Positions 20,301 to 32,552 of a stretch of DNA of 64,000 bases are shown here, one piece after another. Numbering within the stretch: the stretch's first letter is position 1; each line of letters begins with the position of its first letter. The notes under the pieces were generated by a model. It was not told the DNA's origin. It ran no database searches and saw only the letters and a program-made list of their open reading frames with translations. The DNA is taken from assembly GCA_022827095.1 (NCBI GenBank), contig JAJDTP010000004.1, positions 1-64,000 of the forward strand, given 5' to 3'. The translations under genes were made by a program, and so were the position numbers. Origin of the DNA: Dehalococcoidia bacterium (GTDB lineage: Bacteria > Chloroflexota > Dehalococcoidia > Lucifugimonadales > UBA3495).

Positions 20301-21656
20301 TTACACGCCGTCGATTTTCCCTGACGGCCCGGTGATCTCGGCCCCGGCCAGCGGCCGGCGCACCACCGCCGGGTCCACGCCCGCCCGCAGTGCGGCCATC
20401 ACGCCGGCGGCTTCCCAGTAATTCTCCACAATGTGCAGTTGGCCTGGGCTCCACGGCAGTTCTGTCAGGTCGTTGCTCATCAGGTTGCGGTTCTCCCTCA
20501 CCGCAATGGTAGTGATGCCCTGCTCCAGAGCCGCCAGGGTCGGCAAACCCACGCATCCGTCGGGAATCACCAGGCACGATACATCGGCTGCATTGAGTAC
20601 GCTGTGATGACGACGGGCTTCGGGCTCGGTAATCAGCCGGGGACTGCGCTGCAACCCTTTGAGGATGCACTGGATCATTGCCAGCGACACTGCCTCGGCT
20701 GCCATGCGCGGATCAACCACGCCAGGGTCCGCGTTGGCTATCTCCCGGCTCTCCAGCATGGGCGCATGGGCCGACGGCACGTCATAAAGGGCCGAGACCG
20801 TGTGCGTCAGCATCGCCTCCACACCGCCCCAGGGGTTGACCATGTCGCCCATGCGGTCAAAGTACTCAAAATGGTAGCCGGCCGGTACGTCGATCAGGGA
20901 TGTGATCGCCACGGCGTCATATTGGCTGCGCCGCCGGTCCAGTTCCGCAAACAGGGGTTCCAGCCCCCGCACCCGACCCGCCGCCCTGCCCGACCGGGCA
21001 TACCGGGAGTCCATCTGCAAGCCCTGCTCCAGCCGGAGAATCTGAGGGCTGACCAAGCCATAGGAAGTCCGAGCCGCGTTGATGGAGTTGATGGCCGCGT
21101 GGACGAATAGCTCGTCGTCATGAGGGCCGAGCACCACCAGCAAGCGATTGTTGCGGACCCTCTGCAAGCCCAATTGGCCCTGCAATAACCGGGCAATGAC
21201 GCTGCCCTCCACGTACAGGCAATTTGCCGGCATTTCGATGACGTCCGATGCGTTTACCACGTTGGGATGAGTCACCAGCATGTCGCATACCGAGGCGAGC
21301 AGGGCGGCCACCGGCATCGCGTCTCCCGCGTGGCCACCGATCTCCGCGCCCACTCCGGTGGGCACCAGCAGGACTGCGTTGAACTGCTGGGCGTTTTCCA
21401 GGGTGCGGCGGTCCAGGTCAAAAATGGACGCCGGTCGCCGACGGCCCTCCAACCCGCGGAGCAGGCCGATTTCGCAGTGGCGCCCTTGCTGATCGGAATT
21501 CGGGACCCTTACCTTACCCGTCACTGCGAGCCTGATCGGAATCTCGTCCGCTGGCAGTTGCTCTGTCACGGCTGCGCACAACTGCGGGAGCAGATCCGCG
21601 TCAAGTCCGTCGGTGGGGACTATCAGCTCCCGTTCGTACAGTTCGGCAGTCGTCAT
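20301..21656 (-). CDS. DUF3326 domain protein
   Basis: 451 residues, soluble. Central block VPTGVGAEIGGHAGDAMPVA, LLASVCDMLVTHPNVVNASD and LYVEGSVIARLLQGQLG is the DUF3326 signature; the C-terminus VSCLVIPDGCVGLPTLAAL and GITTIAVRENRNLM is also conserved. Function unknown. I chose ATG 21656, which overlaps the TGA of the upstream decarboxylase gene (ATGA), instead of an ATG 21 bases further up. The overlap implies translational coupling, so the two proteins probably act on the same pathway. Confidence 0.85.
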   Translation of the reverse strand: MTTAELYERELIVPTDGLDADLLPQLCAAVTEQLPADEIPIRLAVTGKVRVPNSDQQGRHCEIGLLRGLEGRRRPASIFDLDRRTLENAQQFNAVLLVPTGVGAEIGGHAGDAMPVAALLASVCDMLVTHPNVVNASDVIEMPANCLYVEGSVIARLLQGQLGLQRVRNNRLLVVLGPHDDELFVHAAINSINAARTSYGLVSPQILRLEQGLQMDSRYARSGRAAGRVRGLEPLFAELDRRRSQYDAVAITSLIDVPAGYHFEYFDRMGDMVNPWGGVEAMLTHTVSALYDVPSAHAPMLESREIANADPGVVDPRMAAEAVSLAMIQCILKGLQRSPRLITEPEARRHHSVLNAADVSCLVIPDGCVGLPTLAALEQGITTIAVRENRNLMSNDLTELPWSPGQLHIVENYWEAAGVMAALRAGVDPAVVRRPLAGAEITGPSGKIDGV

Positions 21657-22861
21657 GACGTTGCTGATGCTCCCCATCGCGACGCGAAATCGTCGTAGGT
21701 GAACCTTCGTTTGGCGATCAGATTGCCGTCGGCGTCGAGGGCGTAAATCGTTGGCAGGTTGACGCCGTTGAACATATGGGCCTTGACCAGGGTGTAGGCG
21801 CCCATGTTGAGAAACACGACCCGGTCGCCCACCGTCAATGGAGCGTCAAAGCGGTACTCGCCAAACACGTCCCCGGCGAGGCAGGTACATCCCGCCAGCG
21901 TACAGGTCCACTCTCCGGCGTCGCGGTGCCCCAAAACGTCCGGCTCGTATTGATACTCGAACACTTCCGGCATGTGGTTCACCGTGGTATCCAGGACCGC
22001 CGTTCGGTGGCCGTCCCGTGTCTGGACATCCAGCACCGTGGCGACGAGATAGCACCCGGCGCGTATCAAGGCAGCGCCAGGCTCCATGATCGTCTCCAGG
22101 CCGCAGCGGCGTTGCAGCAAATCCATCGTACGGTACAGGGGCATAAGGTCGGGGACGTCGCCCGTGGATTCATCCTCGAACAGGTACCCGCCGCCCAGGT
22201 TCACCCACTGTAGCCGGCCGTCCTCCAACCGGTGGCCCAGAGTGGAGCGAATTTTATTCACGGTAGCTTCCAGTTGGCCAAAGTCGGTGGCTTCGCAGTT
22301 GGTGTGGAGCAACAGGCCGGAGACGGAATCCGGTTCGTCGAGCGCTTCGGCAACCGCCGCCAGAGGCTCGCCCAGCCGGGAACCGGGCCGGCACGGGTCA
22401 TAACGGGCATCGCCGATGAAAGACAGCTCGGGATTAACTCGCAGACCGCACCGGACCGACGGACGCAGGACGTCTCGATAAGCGCGCCACTGACCGGCCG
22501 AGTTGAAGGCAACGTAGTCGCAAAGCAGGCCCAGTTCCGCGGCATCCTGGAGCCGCAGGCCCGGAGTGGTGAAATGCACCGTGCCCCGGTCGCCCAGGGC
22601 TGACCGAGCCAGCTTCGCCTCGAAGAGCGAACTGACGGCGAAACCGTCCAGATATGGAGCCATCAACTCTAAAGTATCGCGAAAGCAGAAGGATTTCACG
22701 GCGAAAAGCGCCCGGCAGCCGGCCCGTTCCCGGATTTCCGTTGCCCTCTCCAGCAGCCGGACGATGCCGGATTCGTCGTAGATGAATGCCGGGGTTTCCA
22801 ACGCCGCGTCTCCGGAGATGACGGCTTCAAGTTGTTCCGACCACGCTGCGGCCACGTTCAT
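21653..22861 (-). CDS. PLP-dependent decarboxylase, carboxynorspermidine decarboxylase (NspC)-like
   Basis: 402 residues of the fold-type III (alanine racemase-like barrel) decarboxylase group. Lys56 in LFAVKSF is the expected PLP lysine. VNPELSFIGDARYDPCRPGSRLG and LLLHTNCEATDFGQLE match the NspC subgroup, as do LAGCTCLAGDVFGEYRF (second-subunit Cys) and VVFLNMGAYTLVKAHMFNGV near the end. NspC makes norspermidine or spermidine from the carboxylated precursors. The usual partner, a saccharopine dehydrogenase-like CASDH, is not nearby; instead the gene is coupled to DUF3326. The true substrate could therefore differ. Confidence 0.82.
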   Translation of the reverse strand: MNVAAAWSEQLEAVISGDAALETPAFIYDESGIVRLLERATEIRERAGCRALFAVKSFCFRDTLELMAPYLDGFAVSSLFEAKLARSALGDRGTVHFTTPGLRLQDAAELGLLCDYVAFNSAGQWRAYRDVLRPSVRCGLRVNPELSFIGDARYDPCRPGSRLGEPLAAVAEALDEPDSVSGLLLHTNCEATDFGQLEATVNKIRSTLGHRLEDGRLQWVNLGGGYLFEDESTGDVPDLMPLYRTMDLLQRRCGLETIMEPGAALIRAGCYLVATVLDVQTRDGHRTAVLDTTVNHMPEVFEYQYEPDVLGHRDAGEWTCTLAGCTCLAGDVFGEYRFDAPLTVGDRVVFLNMGAYTLVKAHMFNGVNLPTIYALDADGNLIAKRRFTYDDFASRWGASATS

Positions 22862-26819: not shown

Positions 26820-27305
26820 CGCAAGATCCTCTCCATCGCGAGCTTCTCGCAGGTCCGGCAGTTGGCCGCTAGGGTGCGAGCAGCGCGCTGTCCGGTGTCG
26901 TCAGCGTTGACGGAAATCCCCGCGTGCTCGTACTCAAGTGATGAATTGAGCAGTATCCTCCACCACGTTTTCGTCCTCCCCATGCCGGCCAACCCAGGCA
27001 ACACCAAATCCCGCAATCGCAAAGTCAGCAAGCAAGCCACCAAGAAGGACTTCGGCGCCATCGAGCGCAAGAGTACCATCCGCGCTCCAAAGCCTAAGCT
27101 CACAGACGGCAGAAGCGAGCACTCATGAGGGTCCGCGCCGCCGAAGAACGCCAACGGCTCACAACGACCTCCTGGATTCCCGCGAAAGCGGGAATGACGG
27201 ATTAACTTTGAAAAGGCCCTGCGTGAAGTGGCAGGACCGTTGACAACCCTCCGGCGCTTGACTATGATCCGAACTGACAACGGCCCATTAACATTTGAAT
27301 AGCAC
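26820..27305. other. Gap: possible small basic ORF and a MITE half
   Basis: No firm gene. A plus-strand frame from ATG 26982 to TGA 27128 encodes a 48-residue Lys/Arg-rich peptide (KSRNRKVSKQATKKDFGAIE) with strong G/C preference in third positions, so it could be a real small protein, unassigned. At 27157-27221 lies the right half of a MITE: a 10-bp inverted repeat around CCCGCGAAAGCGGG and the end AAAAGGCCCTG, as in the element at 39624-39768. Confidence 0.35.
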
Positions 27306-27475
27306 CCCCGGCGCACCATTACGGTTTAATAGGGAAGGCGGTGAAAAGCCGCCGCGGTTGCGCCACTGTAAGCGGGGAGCCGACCGGCGAAGACCACTGT
27401 CCACCAACATGGATGGGAAGGTGTCGGTCAGGTGCTGATCCGCAAGCCAGGAGACCTGCCCGGGAAGGTGGAGCA
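27306..27475 (+). promoter_or_regulatory. Cobalamin (B12) riboswitch
   Basis: The core elements are in order: AATAGGGAAGGCGGTGAAAA, GCCGCCGCGGTTGCGCCACT followed by GTAAGCGGGGAGC, the GACCACTG piece, GGGAAGGTGTCGG, and the B12 box AAGCCAGGAGACCTGCC at 27444-27460. It senses adenosyl- or related cobalamins and normally lowers expression when B12 is plentiful. A strong terminator hairpin follows at 27557, so control is probably transcriptional. The downstream genes are an SBP and two ABC permeases. Confidence 0.95.
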
Positions 27476-27556
27476 CTACTCTGCGCCAAACAGAGATAGG
27501 CCCATCGGGTTCCCCGTTGAACAGGACAGGAAACCCCGAGGCTAAAGAGAGATTTC

Positions 27557-27590
27557 AACCCCGGCAGAGTAGATGCCGGGGTTTCTGTTT
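27557..27590 (+). terminator. Rho-independent terminator of the B12 riboswitch
   Basis: Perfect 10-bp stem AACCCCGGCA / TGCCGGGGTT with loop GAGTAGA, followed by TCTGTTTGTT. It lies between riboswitch and first gene, the arrangement of a riboswitch expression platform. Confidence 0.85.
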
Positions 27591-27697
27591 GTTCGGTCGC
27601 GACTTCCGGCCGCAAGAGCGAAAACGGTCCCGGCGTCTCTCATTTCCCAATCAGGACGCAAGTCTGGTCAACAACACAGCGGGAAAGGAGCAGCACA

Positions 27698-29398
27698 ATG
27701 AGACCTACTGGACGATTCTTCACCGTCATCCTGGCGACCATGACCCTATGGATCCTGGCCTGTGGCGGCGCTCAACAACCGGATGCGGCGCCGCAATCCG
27801 CCGGGCCGGTTTCCACTGCGCCGGCCGCAACCGCAGCGCCCCAGGCCCAGGCCCAACCCACGCCCGTGCCAACCGCGGTGATGCAGGGCGAGCCGGTGGA
27901 ACTGCGGGTGGGCGCCGTCGCCGACACTTACCGAAATGACGAGAATGACATGAGCCGTCTGAACATCGGCCTGTACCCCCTCAACGTGAACATTTTCGAC
28001 CAGTTGGTGCTGGTGAACCACGATTTCCAGCTTGAGCCGATGCTGGCAGAATCATGGGAGTACCGCCGGGATACCGGGTCTTGGCGCTTCCATCTGCGGG
28101 AAGACGTGGCGTTTCATGACGGCCAGCCATTCACCGCCCAGGCCGTGGTCGAAATGGTGGCGACGTACTGGTCCCAGGGCGCGGGCGGAAACCGGCTGAG
28201 GATCGACGCGAGTTCAGCTGCCGCGGTGGACGAGTTGACCGTGGACATAACACCTGTCAAGCCACACCTGCGGCTGCCCGAGGAACTGGCTCACTCGGCC
28301 TACGGAATACGGGCTCCAGGGGCCAACCCGCTCGACGGGGTGCACATAGGCTCCGGCCCATTCCAATACGTTGAGTACGTCAAGGACGATCATATAGCAG
28401 CAGGGAAAAACACCGAATACTGGGGAGCGGTTCCTCGGGTTGACCGGATCGAATTTCGCTTCATGCCAGATCCCAACACGCGCATCCTGGCGCTCCAAGC
28501 CGGGGACGTGGACGTGATCTTTGATGTCCCGCCCGAAGCTACGTCCCTGCTCGAAGGTTTGGACGATATCCAGGTGCTGCCCACCGGTGTCAGCGCCAGC
28601 CAGTACATCATGGTGCTGCTCACCGGAGAAGAGCCGTATGTCCTGACCCAGGACATCATGGTACGTGAAGCCCTGGGCTACGCCATCGACCGTGAGGCAA
28701 TCCTGGAAGTCTCCTTCGACGGCTACGCCGAGGCAAGCCAGCTCTTCAGCCCGCCGGGGGTTTTGGGTGAGTACGCGGACCGCATCGTGGGTTATGAATA
28801 TGATCCCGACCGGGCCAGGTCTTTGTTGACGGAGGCCGGATGGACGGCGCCGGATGGGGCCGATATACGGGAGAAGGCAGGCCAGCCCCTGACCCTGGAG
28901 TTCATCAACGGATTTCCCGCAGGACCGGAGAATGGACAGACTGCGGAGATCATCCAAGCCCAACTGAGAGAGGTCGGAATAGACCTCAAGGTCACCAACG
29001 TCCCCGACAATGCAACGTACTCGAGCCTGCTCAAGGACAAGCAGGGGGACCTGTTCCTTGAGATCGGGAACCAGAACAGCCCCTCCGCGTGTTTCCTGGC
29101 CAGTCTCTTCTACAGCCGTTACGAGACGCCCGGGTCGTACGCTCGTGGATTTGGCCCAGGTCCCCTGGGCTGGCCGCATTATGACGACGCAATCGACGCC
29201 TGCAATGGCGCTCTCACCACCGGCGAGGCCGCGATGCACCGGGCCGAAGCCATCGGCATCCTGGTGGATGAGTCAAGGTCATTGATTCCCTTGGTGGGCA
29301 TCACGCGAATCTACGCGGCGCGCGACCATGTGCAGGACTTCGATCCTCACCCGGTCCGGCTGCATGTGCGGTGGGATTCTCTCTCGGCCGACCGGTGA
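27698..29398 (+). CDS. ABC transporter substrate-binding lipoprotein, peptide/nickel family (SBP_bac_5)
   Basis: 566 residues. AAAGGAG lies 8 bases before the ATG. Signal peptide and lipobox ILAC (Cys22), then an Ala/Pro-rich linker. The mature part has the family 5 SBP features: LEPMLAESWEYRRDTGSWRFHLREDVAFHDG near residue 110-140, GSGPFQYVEYVKDDHIAAGKNTEYWG, and ALGYAIDREAI. Family members bind oligopeptides, nickel, heme or opines. It is the first gene after a B12 riboswitch, so a ligand tied to cobalamin supply (cobalt, a corrinoid, or a precursor) is plausible but not shown by the sequence. Confidence 0.9.
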   Translation: MRPTGRFFTVILATMTLWILACGGAQQPDAAPQSAGPVSTAPAATAAPQAQAQPTPVPTAVMQGEPVELRVGAVADTYRNDENDMSRLNIGLYPLNVNIFDQLVLVNHDFQLEPMLAESWEYRRDTGSWRFHLREDVAFHDGQPFTAQAVVEMVATYWSQGAGGNRLRIDASSAAAVDELTVDITPVKPHLRLPEELAHSAYGIRAPGANPLDGVHIGSGPFQYVEYVKDDHIAAGKNTEYWGAVPRVDRIEFRFMPDPNTRILALQAGDVDVIFDVPPEATSLLEGLDDIQVLPTGVSASQYIMVLLTGEEPYVLTQDIMVREALGYAIDREAILEVSFDGYAEASQLFSPPGVLGEYADRIVGYEYDPDRARSLLTEAGWTAPDGADIREKAGQPLTLEFINGFPAGPENGQTAEIIQAQLREVGIDLKVTNVPDNATYSSLLKDKQGDLFLEIGNQNSPSACFLASLFYSRYETPGSYARGFGPGPLGWPHYDDAIDACNGALTTGEAAMHRAEAIGILVDESRSLIPLVGITRIYAARDHVQDFDPHPVRLHVRWDSLSADR

Positions 29399-29457
29399 TT
29401 GCGCAGGGCCAGTGGCTTTCACTGGCCCAAAACCTTGTTCAATTCATGACGGCGGCA

Positions 29458-29617
29458 GTAACTGTTCAGAGTTGAGGGGGAAGTGTCATTGCGAGCGCAG
29501 CGAGGCAATCTCGTTGGCGCAAGGGAGTCCTTCGGGGCAGACGTCCCTGATACGGCCTCGAGATTGCCACAGCGCAAGCGCCTCGCAATGACAGTCCCCT
29601 GAAGTCTGAACAGTTAC
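29458..29617. repeat. 160-bp palindromic MITE-like element, copy 2
   Basis: Ends GTAACTGTTCAGA and TCTGAACAGTTAC are exact inverted repeats. Inside, GTCATTGCGAG (29485) and CTCGCAATGAC mirror each other and CAATCTCG is mirrored by CGAGATTG. It has the same length and architecture as the element at 7858-8017. It sits inside the transporter operon, between the binding-protein gene and the first permease gene, where the hairpin could weaken or stabilise the transcript. Confidence 0.85.
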
Positions 29618-29670
29618 CGGCATAGAACAGGAGGGGGCGTATCGGACTTCACTTCTACCTTGCCCGTCGA

Positions 29671-30606
29671 TTGCTCTCGCTGTTTCCCGTATGGATCGCC
29701 ATCACATTCCTCGCGTTCGGCCTGGGCGCCATGGCACCGGGGGATCCGGCGGAAGCAATCTACTACCACACCTTTGGGGTGCCTCCCACCGACCAGGCGG
29801 CGCTTGATGAACTGCGCGACGAACTTGGTCTGAACGACCCGTTCCTGGTGCGCTACGGACTCTGGACCTACCGGGCGCTCCAGGGCGACTTGGGCATTTC
29901 ATACCGTACAGGCGACCCGGTGTGGAACCAACTGGCGTCCCGGCTTTGGGCAACCCTCAAGCTGGCGCTCGGCGGTGTGATGGTCGCGATAGCGATTGCA
30001 CTCCCTTTGGGCATTCTGGCTGCGGTTCGACAGGACTCGACATTGGACCTGGCGGCTCGGCTGTTCAGCCTGATCGGGGCCGCCATGCCTTCCTATTGGC
30101 TGGCCTACCTGCTGATCCTGGTCTTCGCGGTGCATCTGCACTGGCTGCCGGTCGCGGGTTCGGATTCGTGGCAGCACTTGGTTCTTCCCTGCACCACCCT
30201 GGGATTGAGCGGCGCCGCGCTGCTCAGTCGTCTGCTTCGGTCGTCCATGCTGGAAGCCATGGGCAACGAATACATGCGCGTGGCGCGGGCCAAGGGCTTG
30301 CCGGAGAGGCAGGTCATACTGGTGCATGCCCTGCGCAATGCCCTCATACCGGTGGTCACCGTCATGGGGACCATGCTTGGGTTCCTGCTGTCCGGCGCTA
30401 TTGTCATCGAGACAGTATTCGCGTGGCCCGGCCTGGGGCGGATGATGATCGACGCAATATCCTTCCGGGATTACCCGGTAATCCAGGGCTTCGTAATCTT
30501 CGCCGGCACGGTGTTCATTCTGGTCAATCTGGCGGTTGATGTGTCATACACCTGGATCGACCCCAGGATCCGGTTGGCCGGTGGTCCGGATGCAAGCCGA
30601 GGGTGA
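29671..30606 (+). CDS. ABC transporter permease, DppB/NikB type
   Basis: Around 311-321 residues with six helices, the DppB loop (PAEAIYYHTFGVPPTDQAALDELRDELGLNDPFLVRY) after helix 1, and the EAA loop EYMRVARAKGLPERQVILVHALRNALIP that docks on the ATPase. The coordinates start at TTG 29671, but family members begin about ten residues earlier. In frame there, the only codon with a good ribosome site (AGGAGG, 6 bases) is ATC at 29641, giving GLHFYLARRLLSLFP. Either an AUC start or an ATG-to-ATC change is likely. Second gene of the B12-riboswitch operon. Confidence 0.9.
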   Translation: MLSLFPVWIAITFLAFGLGAMAPGDPAEAIYYHTFGVPPTDQAALDELRDELGLNDPFLVRYGLWTYRALQGDLGISYRTGDPVWNQLASRLWATLKLALGGVMVAIAIALPLGILAAVRQDSTLDLAARLFSLIGAAMPSYWLAYLLILVFAVHLHWLPVAGSDSWQHLVLPCTTLGLSGAALLSRLLRSSMLEAMGNEYMRVARAKGLPERQVILVHALRNALIPVVTVMGTMLGFLLSGAIVIETVFAWPGLGRMMIDAISFRDYPVIQGFVIFAGTVFILVNLAVDVSYTWIDPRIRLAGGPDASRG

Positions 30607-30622
30607 AGGAGCGTCTGGCAAC

Positions 30623-31498
30623 ATGCTGACTGCCAGTCCGAGCCTCCGGGTTGCCATCAAAGTGTTGGACATCCGGTTCCTGCGCCTACTGATACGAAAC
30701 CGGGCGGCCGTTGTGGGTCTCCTGATTGTGGCCGTGATGGTTTCGATTGGCTTGTTGGGCCCTCTTCTTGCCCCCTACGACCCGGATACGCAGTTCAGGG
30801 GAAGCCGTCTGGAATCTCCCAATCGCGAGTTTCTCCTGGGCACGGACAACCTGGGCCGCGACCTCTTGAGCCGATTGCTACATGGCGCGAGGCTGTCCAT
30901 CGGCATGGCCGCGTTGTCGACTGTCTTCATCGTTGTCATCGCCGTGGTGATCGGCGCGGTTGCCGGGTATGTTGGCGGCCTCCTGGACGACATCGCAATG
31001 CGCGTGGTCGATGTGATCCTGGCCTTCCCGGGGATCATACTGGCGCTGGCAATAATCGGCGTTCTGGGGCCTGGCCTGGGGAACGTGATGATGAGTCTGG
31101 TTCTGGTCGCATGGGCCGGTTACGCGCGTCTGGTGAGAGGGCTGGTGCTGGAGACGCGCGAGAGGCCCTTCGTGGAGGCCGCGGTCGCGATCGGCTGCGG
31201 TCAGACCAGGATCATGCTGCGCCATATCGTCCCGAATGTGATCTCCCCGGTGATCGTTCTGGGATCCCTGGAAATGGGGACCCTCATCCTGGCTCTGGCC
31301 GGGTTGAACTTTCTCGGTCTGGGAGTCCAGCCTCCGACATCAGAATGGGGATCCATGCTCAACCAGGGACGCTTATTTTTCCAGAGCGAACCTCAGCTCA
31401 TGATTTATCCGGGCGTGATGATCAGTCTGACGGTGCTAGGGTTCAACTTGCTGGGTGACGGCTTGAGAGATTTGATTGACCCGAGATATGCCAACTAA
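30623..31498 (+). CDS. ABC transporter permease, DppC/NikC type
   Basis: 291 residues from ATG 30623 (GAAGGAG 11 bases upstream); in-frame ATGs at 30590 and 30536 overlap the previous gene. Typical DppC order: N-terminal helix (RNRAAVVGLLIVAVMVSIGLLGPLLAPYDPD), FLLGTDNLGRDLLSRLLHGARLSI, five more helices, EAA loop AAVAIGCGQTRIMLRHIVPNVISPV, and the ending MISLTVLGFNLLGDGLRDLIDPR. It forms the channel with the DppB-type partner. No ATPase (DppD/F or NikD/E) follows in the window. Confidence 0.92.
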   Translation: MLTASPSLRVAIKVLDIRFLRLLIRNRAAVVGLLIVAVMVSIGLLGPLLAPYDPDTQFRGSRLESPNREFLLGTDNLGRDLLSRLLHGARLSIGMAALSTVFIVVIAVVIGAVAGYVGGLLDDIAMRVVDVILAFPGIILALAIIGVLGPGLGNVMMSLVLVAWAGYARLVRGLVLETRERPFVEAAVAIGCGQTRIMLRHIVPNVISPVIVLGSLEMGTLILALAGLNFLGLGVQPPTSEWGSMLNQGRLFFQSEPQLMIYPGVMISLTVLGFNLLGDGLRDLIDPRYAN

Positions 31499-31952
31499 GG
31501 ACTTCCCCGGCAGGTGGAGGAATGCCAAAAAATGCGGATGGATCTGTGAGTGTGAAGCCGTATCGCCGATAGCCAGGATACGGGGCCGTCCGCATGAGAC
31601 GTTTTCCGATGTGGCCGAGCGCAAGCGCCGAAACGATGCTCTGTGGTACCGAGCCAATGGGGGGCGCACCCGCCATCGCTCCAAAAGAGTAGGTGGACGA
31701 TTGCGGCGCGGAACCGGCAGTCGGGTTCCCGGCTCCTGCGGGCCGGGCATTCGGGATTGTTTCCCACAGCTGACAGTTTGCGGAACGCTCTCCCGGCCAG
31801 GCGACAGAAGACACTTGCAAGTTGGACCCTGGAGATGATCCTATGCCGCAGGAGATTGCTCTGATGAGTTCCGTCACGCCTGTCATACATATATTCAAAC
31901 AAAAGGCGACCTAATTTATATGTATTCAATATAGTTTGGCGGACTTTATGGG
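31499..31952. other. Gap with AT-rich inverted repeat
   Basis: No convincing gene. At 31885-31925 a 9-bp perfect inverted repeat (ATACATATA / TATATGTAT, 23-base spacer) lies in an AT-rich island, and TATTCAA occurs twice. This contrasts strongly with the GC-rich surroundings. It could be an operator, an old insertion end, or part of the promoter of the gene at 31953. Confidence 0.4.
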
Positions 31953-32552
31953 TTGTTTCGCACCGGTGGTATCGTACCAATAGTTTCCGTAGTGTGGTTC
32001 GTGGGTGCCGACGAATGGGAGGTCTGGGTCTGCGGCGTAGGCAAGAAGGCCAAGCACCGGGCGGCCGATGTCTATTTCACGGCCGTCGCTAAGGTAAACA
32101 CCAAGGGTTGGCCGGTTACCACCGAGGACTTGGACGATGCCCGTGCCCATCGTCGCGTTCCCAGCACGTCCACGAGTAGTACCTCCAGTGTGAGCGCCCA
32201 CGCTTACATTGACTGCGAAGACGGCTTGCCGAGCGTCGATGACGTGTCCATCACCCGGAGCCTCAACGACGATGACTTCGTTGCCAGTTGGGATCACGTC
32301 GACGGGTGTATCGACGACATCGCCATGGCTCGCATCGTGGCCTGGCTAGCGATTGAATTCGACAACGGCGATATTGGGTACGACACCGTGTACGGTCTTG
32401 GAGGGACTGCCACCAGGGCAAGGTTTGATCTGAGCCCATGGCAAGACTTTGAGCCGGTGGCTGGCCTCTTCGAGGTACACCTGTACCCGACGAACCAGGA
32501 ATATGGCGGAGAGGCGTACGTCTATGAGTTCGAGATCGACGAGGTGAAGTAA
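31953..32552 (+). CDS. Hypothetical protein
   Basis: Up to 199 residues; first possible codon is TTG 31953 and the true start may be a later GTG. The C-terminal half (FVASWDHVDGCIDDIAMARIV, then FDNGDIGYDTVYGLGGTATRARFDL, EVHLYPTNQEYGGEAYVYEFEI) has the pattern of a beta-sandwich such as a fibronectin type III-like domain. A Ser/Thr-rich stretch (STSTSSTSSVS) precedes it. No signal peptide is visible at the present start. I do not recognise the family. A minus-strand frame over the first half is also open, so confidence is limited. Confidence 0.45.
   Translation: MFRTGGIVPIVSVVWFVGADEWEVWVCGVGKKAKHRAADVYFTAVAKVNTKGWPVTTEDLDDARAHRRVPSTSTSSTSSVSAHAYIDCEDGLPSVDDVSITRSLNDDDFVASWDHVDGCIDDIAMARIVAWLAIEFDNGDIGYDTVYGLGGTATRARFDLSPWQDFEPVAGLFEVHLYPTNQEYGGEAYVYEFEIDEVK

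Follow-up and report, generated by a model that had tools for sequence, protein, structure and literature searches.

The closest described systems to the operon analysed here are nickel-type ABC importers. NikABCDE lies under a B12 riboswitch in Clostridium tetani and Desulfitobacterium hafniense, and these two cases have been treated as exceptions to nickel specificity (PMC2667541). In Sinorhizobium meliloti, the cobalt ABC importer CbtJKL is controlled by an adenosylcobalamin riboswitch, and its CbtJ resembles BtuF (PMC7689651). The multitask ATPases MsmX and MsmK power sugar importers from a gene located apart from the importer genes (PMC7658222).

The operon studied here lies in a 64 kb window, the whole stretch of DNA that was analysed, from a Chloroflexota metagenome-assembled genome. 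It shares with NikABCDE the binding-protein family and NikB/NikC-type permeases, and with the two Firmicutes systems the B12 riboswitch. It differs in that the loci examined lack NikD and NikE, the NikA residues Arg137 and His416 are not kept in the binding protein, relatives are embedded in cob loci and have an FhuF-like partner, and the host belongs to the Chloroflexota. Like CbtJKL, it is a riboswitch-controlled ABC importer with cobalt as the probable substrate, but it has a family 5 binding protein and NikB/C-type permeases in place of the BtuF-like CbtJ. Flanked by cobN and chlID, the predicted cobalt transporter CbtAB takes up the place that the cassette has in relatives and is likewise riboswitch-controlled, although it belongs to an unrelated protein family and is not an ABC importer. 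MsmX and MsmK differ in serving sugar importers, whereas ATPase sharing in this lineage would take place within the Opp/Nik family. The co-regulated reductase resembles the ferric-siderophore reductase FhuF in its C-terminal CC-x11-C-x2-C motif and, for the G029 member, in a PF06276 match, but it is found under a B12 riboswitch or in the probable cobalt operon, and the window's genome has no FecCD permease over cut-off. B12-riboswitch NikABCDE has been predicted before; the ATPase-less, cob-locus-embedded and reductase-linked form is new. No description of this form was found in the literature searched: paper searches on FhuF with cobalamin riboswitches and on sponge Chloroflexi and cobalamin gave none, and one on cobalt and siderophores in seawater yielded nothing.

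Control region and operon structure

The initial annotation had reported a cobalamin riboswitch and terminator followed by a binding protein and two permeases with no ATPase, and family matches bore out this arrangement (RF00174, 111.1 bits; PF00496; PF00528; Table 1). The riboswitch match was full length (model positions 1–189 of 189), exceeded the gathering score of 31.5 and was the sole Rfam match across the window. Similar control regions were found in three relatives carrying orthologous operons (G008, G002 and G029). A similar promoter motif is visible upstream of the aptamer in G008, and equivalent hairpins with T runs are present in all three. The region 27478–27600 folded better than 200 of 200 shuffles (z-score −2.67). 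The segment ACTCTGC (27478–27484) is complementary to GCAGAGT (27564–27570) in the terminator hairpin, and because the same complementarity occurs in G008 and G002, this segment could plausibly act as an antiterminator.

Table 1. Features of the window operon and the five cobalamin riboswitches of the window's genome (G000)
Feature	Position	Strand	Evidence or context
Sigma-70-like promoter, TTGACA-17-TATGAT	27240..27268	+	11/12 consensus matches; no second one detected within 27100-32100
Cobalamin riboswitch aptamer, RF00174	27292..27477	+	cmscan 111.1 bits, E 5.6e-27
Expression platform	27478..27556	+	Sequence common to G008 and G002
Terminator-like hairpin, 10 pairs, then TCTGTTTGTT	27557..27583	+	
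Family 5 solute-binding lipoprotein, NikA-like (SBP1)	27698..29398	+	PF00496, 254 bits, over cut-off
NikB-type permease	29671..30606	+	PF00528; NF045470 Opp2B, 368.6 bits (cut-off 350)
NikC-type permease	30623..31498	+	PF00528 and OppC_N; NF045474 Opp2C, 305.3 bits (cut-off 300)
Riboswitch 1			Before the window SBP-NikB-NikC operon
Riboswitch 2			Before the second SBP-NikB-NikC operon, L048
Riboswitch 3			Before cobI-cobN-DUF7676-cbtB-cbtA-chlID, L050
Riboswitch 4			Upstream of a ChuX-like gene, then cobB/cobO/cobT/cobS/cobD-like genes, L051
Riboswitch 5			Before a 275-aa FhuF-like gene, L049

The best NCBIfam match of SBP1 was TIGR02294 nikA, at 185 bits against an equivalog cut-off of 393. 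Its nearest solved sequences are NikA proteins, with NikA 4oer as the nearest PDB sequence. Arg137 and His416 are ligand residues of NikA (His416 is also named in the title of 3qim). Arg137 aligned to Ser200 of SBP1 in a phmmer pairwise alignment against E. coli NikA, and a pairwise alignment to 4oer placed no histidine of SBP1 at the His416 position. Judged by its sequence, SBP1 is NikA-like but not NikA, and would not recognise Ni-(L-His)2 as NikA does because these two residues are not conserved. A structure model of SBP1 (mean pLDDT 70) aligned to SBP5 structures with Z up to 31.1 (rmsd 3.0 over 452 residues); it did not discriminate between nickel, heme, opine and peptide binders, and no ligand was read off it.

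Of the initial designation of the permeases as DppB/DppC-type, the two PF00528 permeases stood; the peptide-type (Dpp) naming was rejected because both proteins matched the nickel-type NCBIfam models over curated cut-offs. The true start of the NikB-type gene may lie near 29641, at a rare codon. For the NikC-type gene, the mechanical ORF start is 30536, but the gene probably begins at ATG 30623, which is preceded by a Shine-Dalgarno-like GAAGGAG. The entire window contig contains no OppD/F ATPase.

Two further observations concern the window. Between the SBP and NikB genes lies a palindromic intergenic element (29458–29617) with inverted arms of 22 and 18 nt. Its core has four copies in the window but none in the corresponding gap of G008, and it looks like a MITE/REP-type insertion. 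Separately, a carboxynorspermidine decarboxylase-like gene at 21653–22861 (TIGR01047, 292 bits, below the cut-off of 409) suggests a gene of a norspermidine/spermidine pathway.

Cobalamin genes and riboswitches of the window's genome

The window's genome (3.79 Mb, 35 contigs, 97.65% complete, 4.24% contamination) carries five cobalamin riboswitches. SBP5 genes lie directly downstream of two of them, an association with a chance probability of about 5e-5 given 29 SBP5 genes. CobN (1247 bits against an NCBIfam cut-off of 822), the chelatase ATPase subunit ChlID (787.5 against 779) and the cbtA product in L050 (PF09490, 103 bits) were identified by family match, and the names given to cbtB and the L051 genes rest on position and sequence reading.

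Orthologues and their position in the cob locus

Within the family, SBP1 was found at E 1e-60 in 4 of 50 genomes: the window's genome, G008 (89% identical), G002 (79%) and G029 (68%). At E 1e-70, the window's genome alone was recovered among 393 sampled class genomes, and a wide distribution of exact SBP1 was rejected on these two counts. Apart from the sister genome, a wider contig scan yielded just two distant SBP5 loci, neither of which has a riboswitch. The four orthologous loci all keep the riboswitch and all lack an ATPase.

The gene order in G029 is cobI-cobN-DUF7676-[riboswitch-SBP-NikB-NikC-FhuF-like]-chlID. The cassette thus occupies the cobN-chlID slot that is filled by cbtBA in the window's genome. 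CbtA was present in 30 of the 50 family genomes, and nine genomes have the cassette with no CbtA detected, including G029 (95% complete) and G042 (91%). This supports, without proving, the idea that the cassette can replace cbtBA; CbtA is the sole cobalt-transporter family that was searched and several of the genomes are incomplete. In almost every cob locus read, a DUF7676/ChuX-like gene separates cobN from the transporter genes (e.g. L050:7162-7596 and L066:11615-12043), and a role of its product in tetrapyrrole or cobalt handling is possible.

A second cassette type

A second binding protein, 31% identical to SBP1 and here called L048-type, is encoded in cassettes of the same design (SBP-NikB-NikC with no ATPase). 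It is present in 28 of the 50 family genomes, including the window's own, where the second riboswitch is immediately preceded by a transposase-like ORF (L048:5117-6502, IS66-like on visual inspection).

The initial annotation had suggested seeking family 5 binding proteins behind B12 riboswitches in relatives, and these were found at the four SBP1 loci and, directly upstream, at 18 of the 30 L048-type loci scanned, the copy in the window's genome counted; several of the riboswitch-negative L048-type loci are truncated by the end of a contig or represent the second copy of a tandem pair. Homologous operons in relatives without the riboswitch would have spoken against the initial proposal; the SBP1 orthologues gave no such case, and riboswitch-free relatives exist in the second type. 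Riboswitches at the cob-locus cassettes were first called by a simple motif search and those that count were confirmed with Rfam.

In distant members of this type, from at least seven genomes, the cassette lies between cobN and chlID (L118, L119, L120, L122, L123, L124 and L125), and L121 likewise ends in chlID. In four of the loci in this slot cbtA lies between the cassette and chlID, and in three a further riboswitch precedes cbtB/cbtA. In L118 a FhuF-like gene is located between the riboswitch and the SBP gene. Given the position of the SBP1-type cassette in G029 and those of L118–L120 and L122–L125, two binding-protein lineages therefore share one slot in the B12 locus. No OppD/F ATPase was found at any related cassette examined.

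Riboswitch-free L048-type loci adjoin CobW (COG0523) and/or WD40 genes in six cases (L104, L107, L111, L112, L114 and L116), and L111 and L116 also have ABC-3 (Znu-type) permease and ATPase genes. On account of these members, a cobalt function was no longer assumed for all L048-type loci. As several adjoin CobW and ABC-3 genes, the riboswitch-free members are probably a branch for zinc or another metal, with the riboswitch marking the cobalt branch.

FhuF-like reductase partner

FhuF-like genes co-occur with the cassettes, either behind their own riboswitch, as in the window's genome (L049:8881-9708), or inside the operon, as in G029; in G002 the gene lies downstream of the cassette (L065). 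Against the PF06276 cut-off of 25.2 bits, the G029 protein scored 33.4 and the G002 protein 21.8, and the member in the window's genome was not detected, but is 54% identical to that of G029. All 16 FhuF-like sequences examined have a C-terminal CC-x11-C-x2-C; we take CC-x(about 10)-C-x2-C to be the C-terminal four-cysteine [2Fe-2S] motif of FhuF.

Of 18 FhuF-like loci, eight either follow a cobalamin riboswitch or form part of an SBP1 operon. All four SBP1 genomes were among the five top-scoring FhuF-like genomes, with a chance probability of 2e-5 under the assumption of independent genomes, which these are not. On the FhuF-like tree, the riboswitch/operon label was clustered but did not form one clade (three changes), so FhuF-like proteins may have been recruited more than once.

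Source of the ATPase

The window's genome encodes 13 oligo_HPY ATPases. None of its proteins matched nikD over cut-off, and a hidden NikD/NikE pair elsewhere in the genome was rejected as none scored over cut-off. Because an OppD/F ATPase is missing from the 10 kb around 12 of its 13 OppC_N permease genes, a permease with no neighbouring ATPase is usual in this genome and not special to cobalt. This fits the earlier suggestion that the transporter borrows ATPases encoded elsewhere.

The candidates for this role are orphan D/F pairs at C11:31.7-33.7 kb and at C1:44.8-46.9 kb, together with a solitary OppD-like protein (L052:16145-17128). The gene for the last belongs to a cluster of housekeeping type (RNase J-like, ftsK-like, PHP and ATPase genes), divergent from a conserved gene of 331–361 aa. 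That the solitary protein supplies the missing ATPase is a tentative proposal, somewhat short of even likelihood. Its synteny is conserved in the window's genome and 7 of 8 relatives read, at 58–64% identity, and in G030 and G027 a NikC/OppC-type permease borders each of the two remaining ATPase pairs, leaving the solitary protein as the only one free of a permease. However, G030 and G027 are only 71–73% complete, a single OppD would need to function as a homodimer, and both orphan pairs are also present in the window's genome, with the C1 pair kept in G020, G029, G040 and G041. Across the family, the solitary OppD-like gene stands in the housekeeping cluster with no adjoining permease (L052:16145-17128, L184–L191).

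Substrate and proposed function

The operon is likely to encode a B12-repressed importer of cobalt, as the ion or a small chelate, that uses shared OppD/F-type ATPases and serves B12 synthesis. The initial annotation had named cobalt, a corrinoid and a precursor as possible substrates. The comparative evidence supports this and points within it to cobalt, because relatives adjoin cobaltochelatase genes and replace cbtBA, and because the permeases are nickel-type.

Several observations run against cobalt. The window's genome also has CbtA, which would make cobalt uptake redundant there; the binding protein has not kept the NikA residues Arg137 and His416; and the riboswitch-free L048-type members near ABC-3 (Znu-type) genes indicate that the protein family is not cobalt-only. 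In addition, no FecCD/BtuC permease (siderophore/corrinoid) was found over cut-off in the window's genome, leaving no other importer to which a corrinoid role could be assigned. A BtuFCD corrinoid importer elsewhere in the genome was rejected, as the borderline FecCD match reads as a ZnuB-like permease.

This absence, together with the fact that corrinoid importers are often under B12 riboswitches, would suit a cassette that replaces BtuFCD in the salvage of cobinamide, cobalamin or a precursor. We nevertheless regard corrinoid import as improbable: the genome encodes cobalt insertion and later steps (cobN and chlID by family match; cobB, cobO, cobT, cobS and cobD by reading), and both the genes that relatives adjoin or replace and the permease type argue for the metal. 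Import of a nutrient alternative to a B12-dependent enzyme, such as peptides or methionine precursors, is very improbable, for although B12-independent isozymes are also controlled by B12 riboswitches, many family 5 binding proteins take peptides and peptide binders are among the best structural matches to the model, the cob-locus position, cbtBA exchange and FhuF-like co-regulation point to a metal.

For the cobalt importer, we infer the following sequence of events. When B12 is scarce, the riboswitch would leave the terminator unformed and the operon would be transcribed. The lipoprotein would capture cobalt outside the membrane, probably as a small chelate, and hand it to a NikB-NikC pore driven by OppD/F-type ATPases that are encoded elsewhere and common to many permeases. 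The imported cobalt would then be used by the CobN/ChlID-type cobaltochelatase. Once in ample supply, B12 would occupy the aptamer and transcription would stop.

A more specific version, in which the operon imports a Co(III) or Co(II) chelate with an organic ligand and the FhuF-like [2Fe-2S] reductase, controlled by a riboswitch of the same kind, frees the cobalt inside by reduction, is rather unlikely; if true, it would amount to a siderophore-style cobalt route supplying the neighbouring cobaltochelatase. The co-regulated FhuF-like reductase makes the acquisition of ligand-bound cobalt by bacteria experimentally approachable.

These results add a probable NikABC-type cobalt importer to a Chloroflexota lineage, in the form of recurrent riboswitch-marked cassettes with no ATPase of their own. 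The cob-locus position in relatives and the exchange with cbtBA provide a direct functional prediction. Annotation pipelines would label such genes as peptide/nickel transporters, and cobalt acquisition would be missed.
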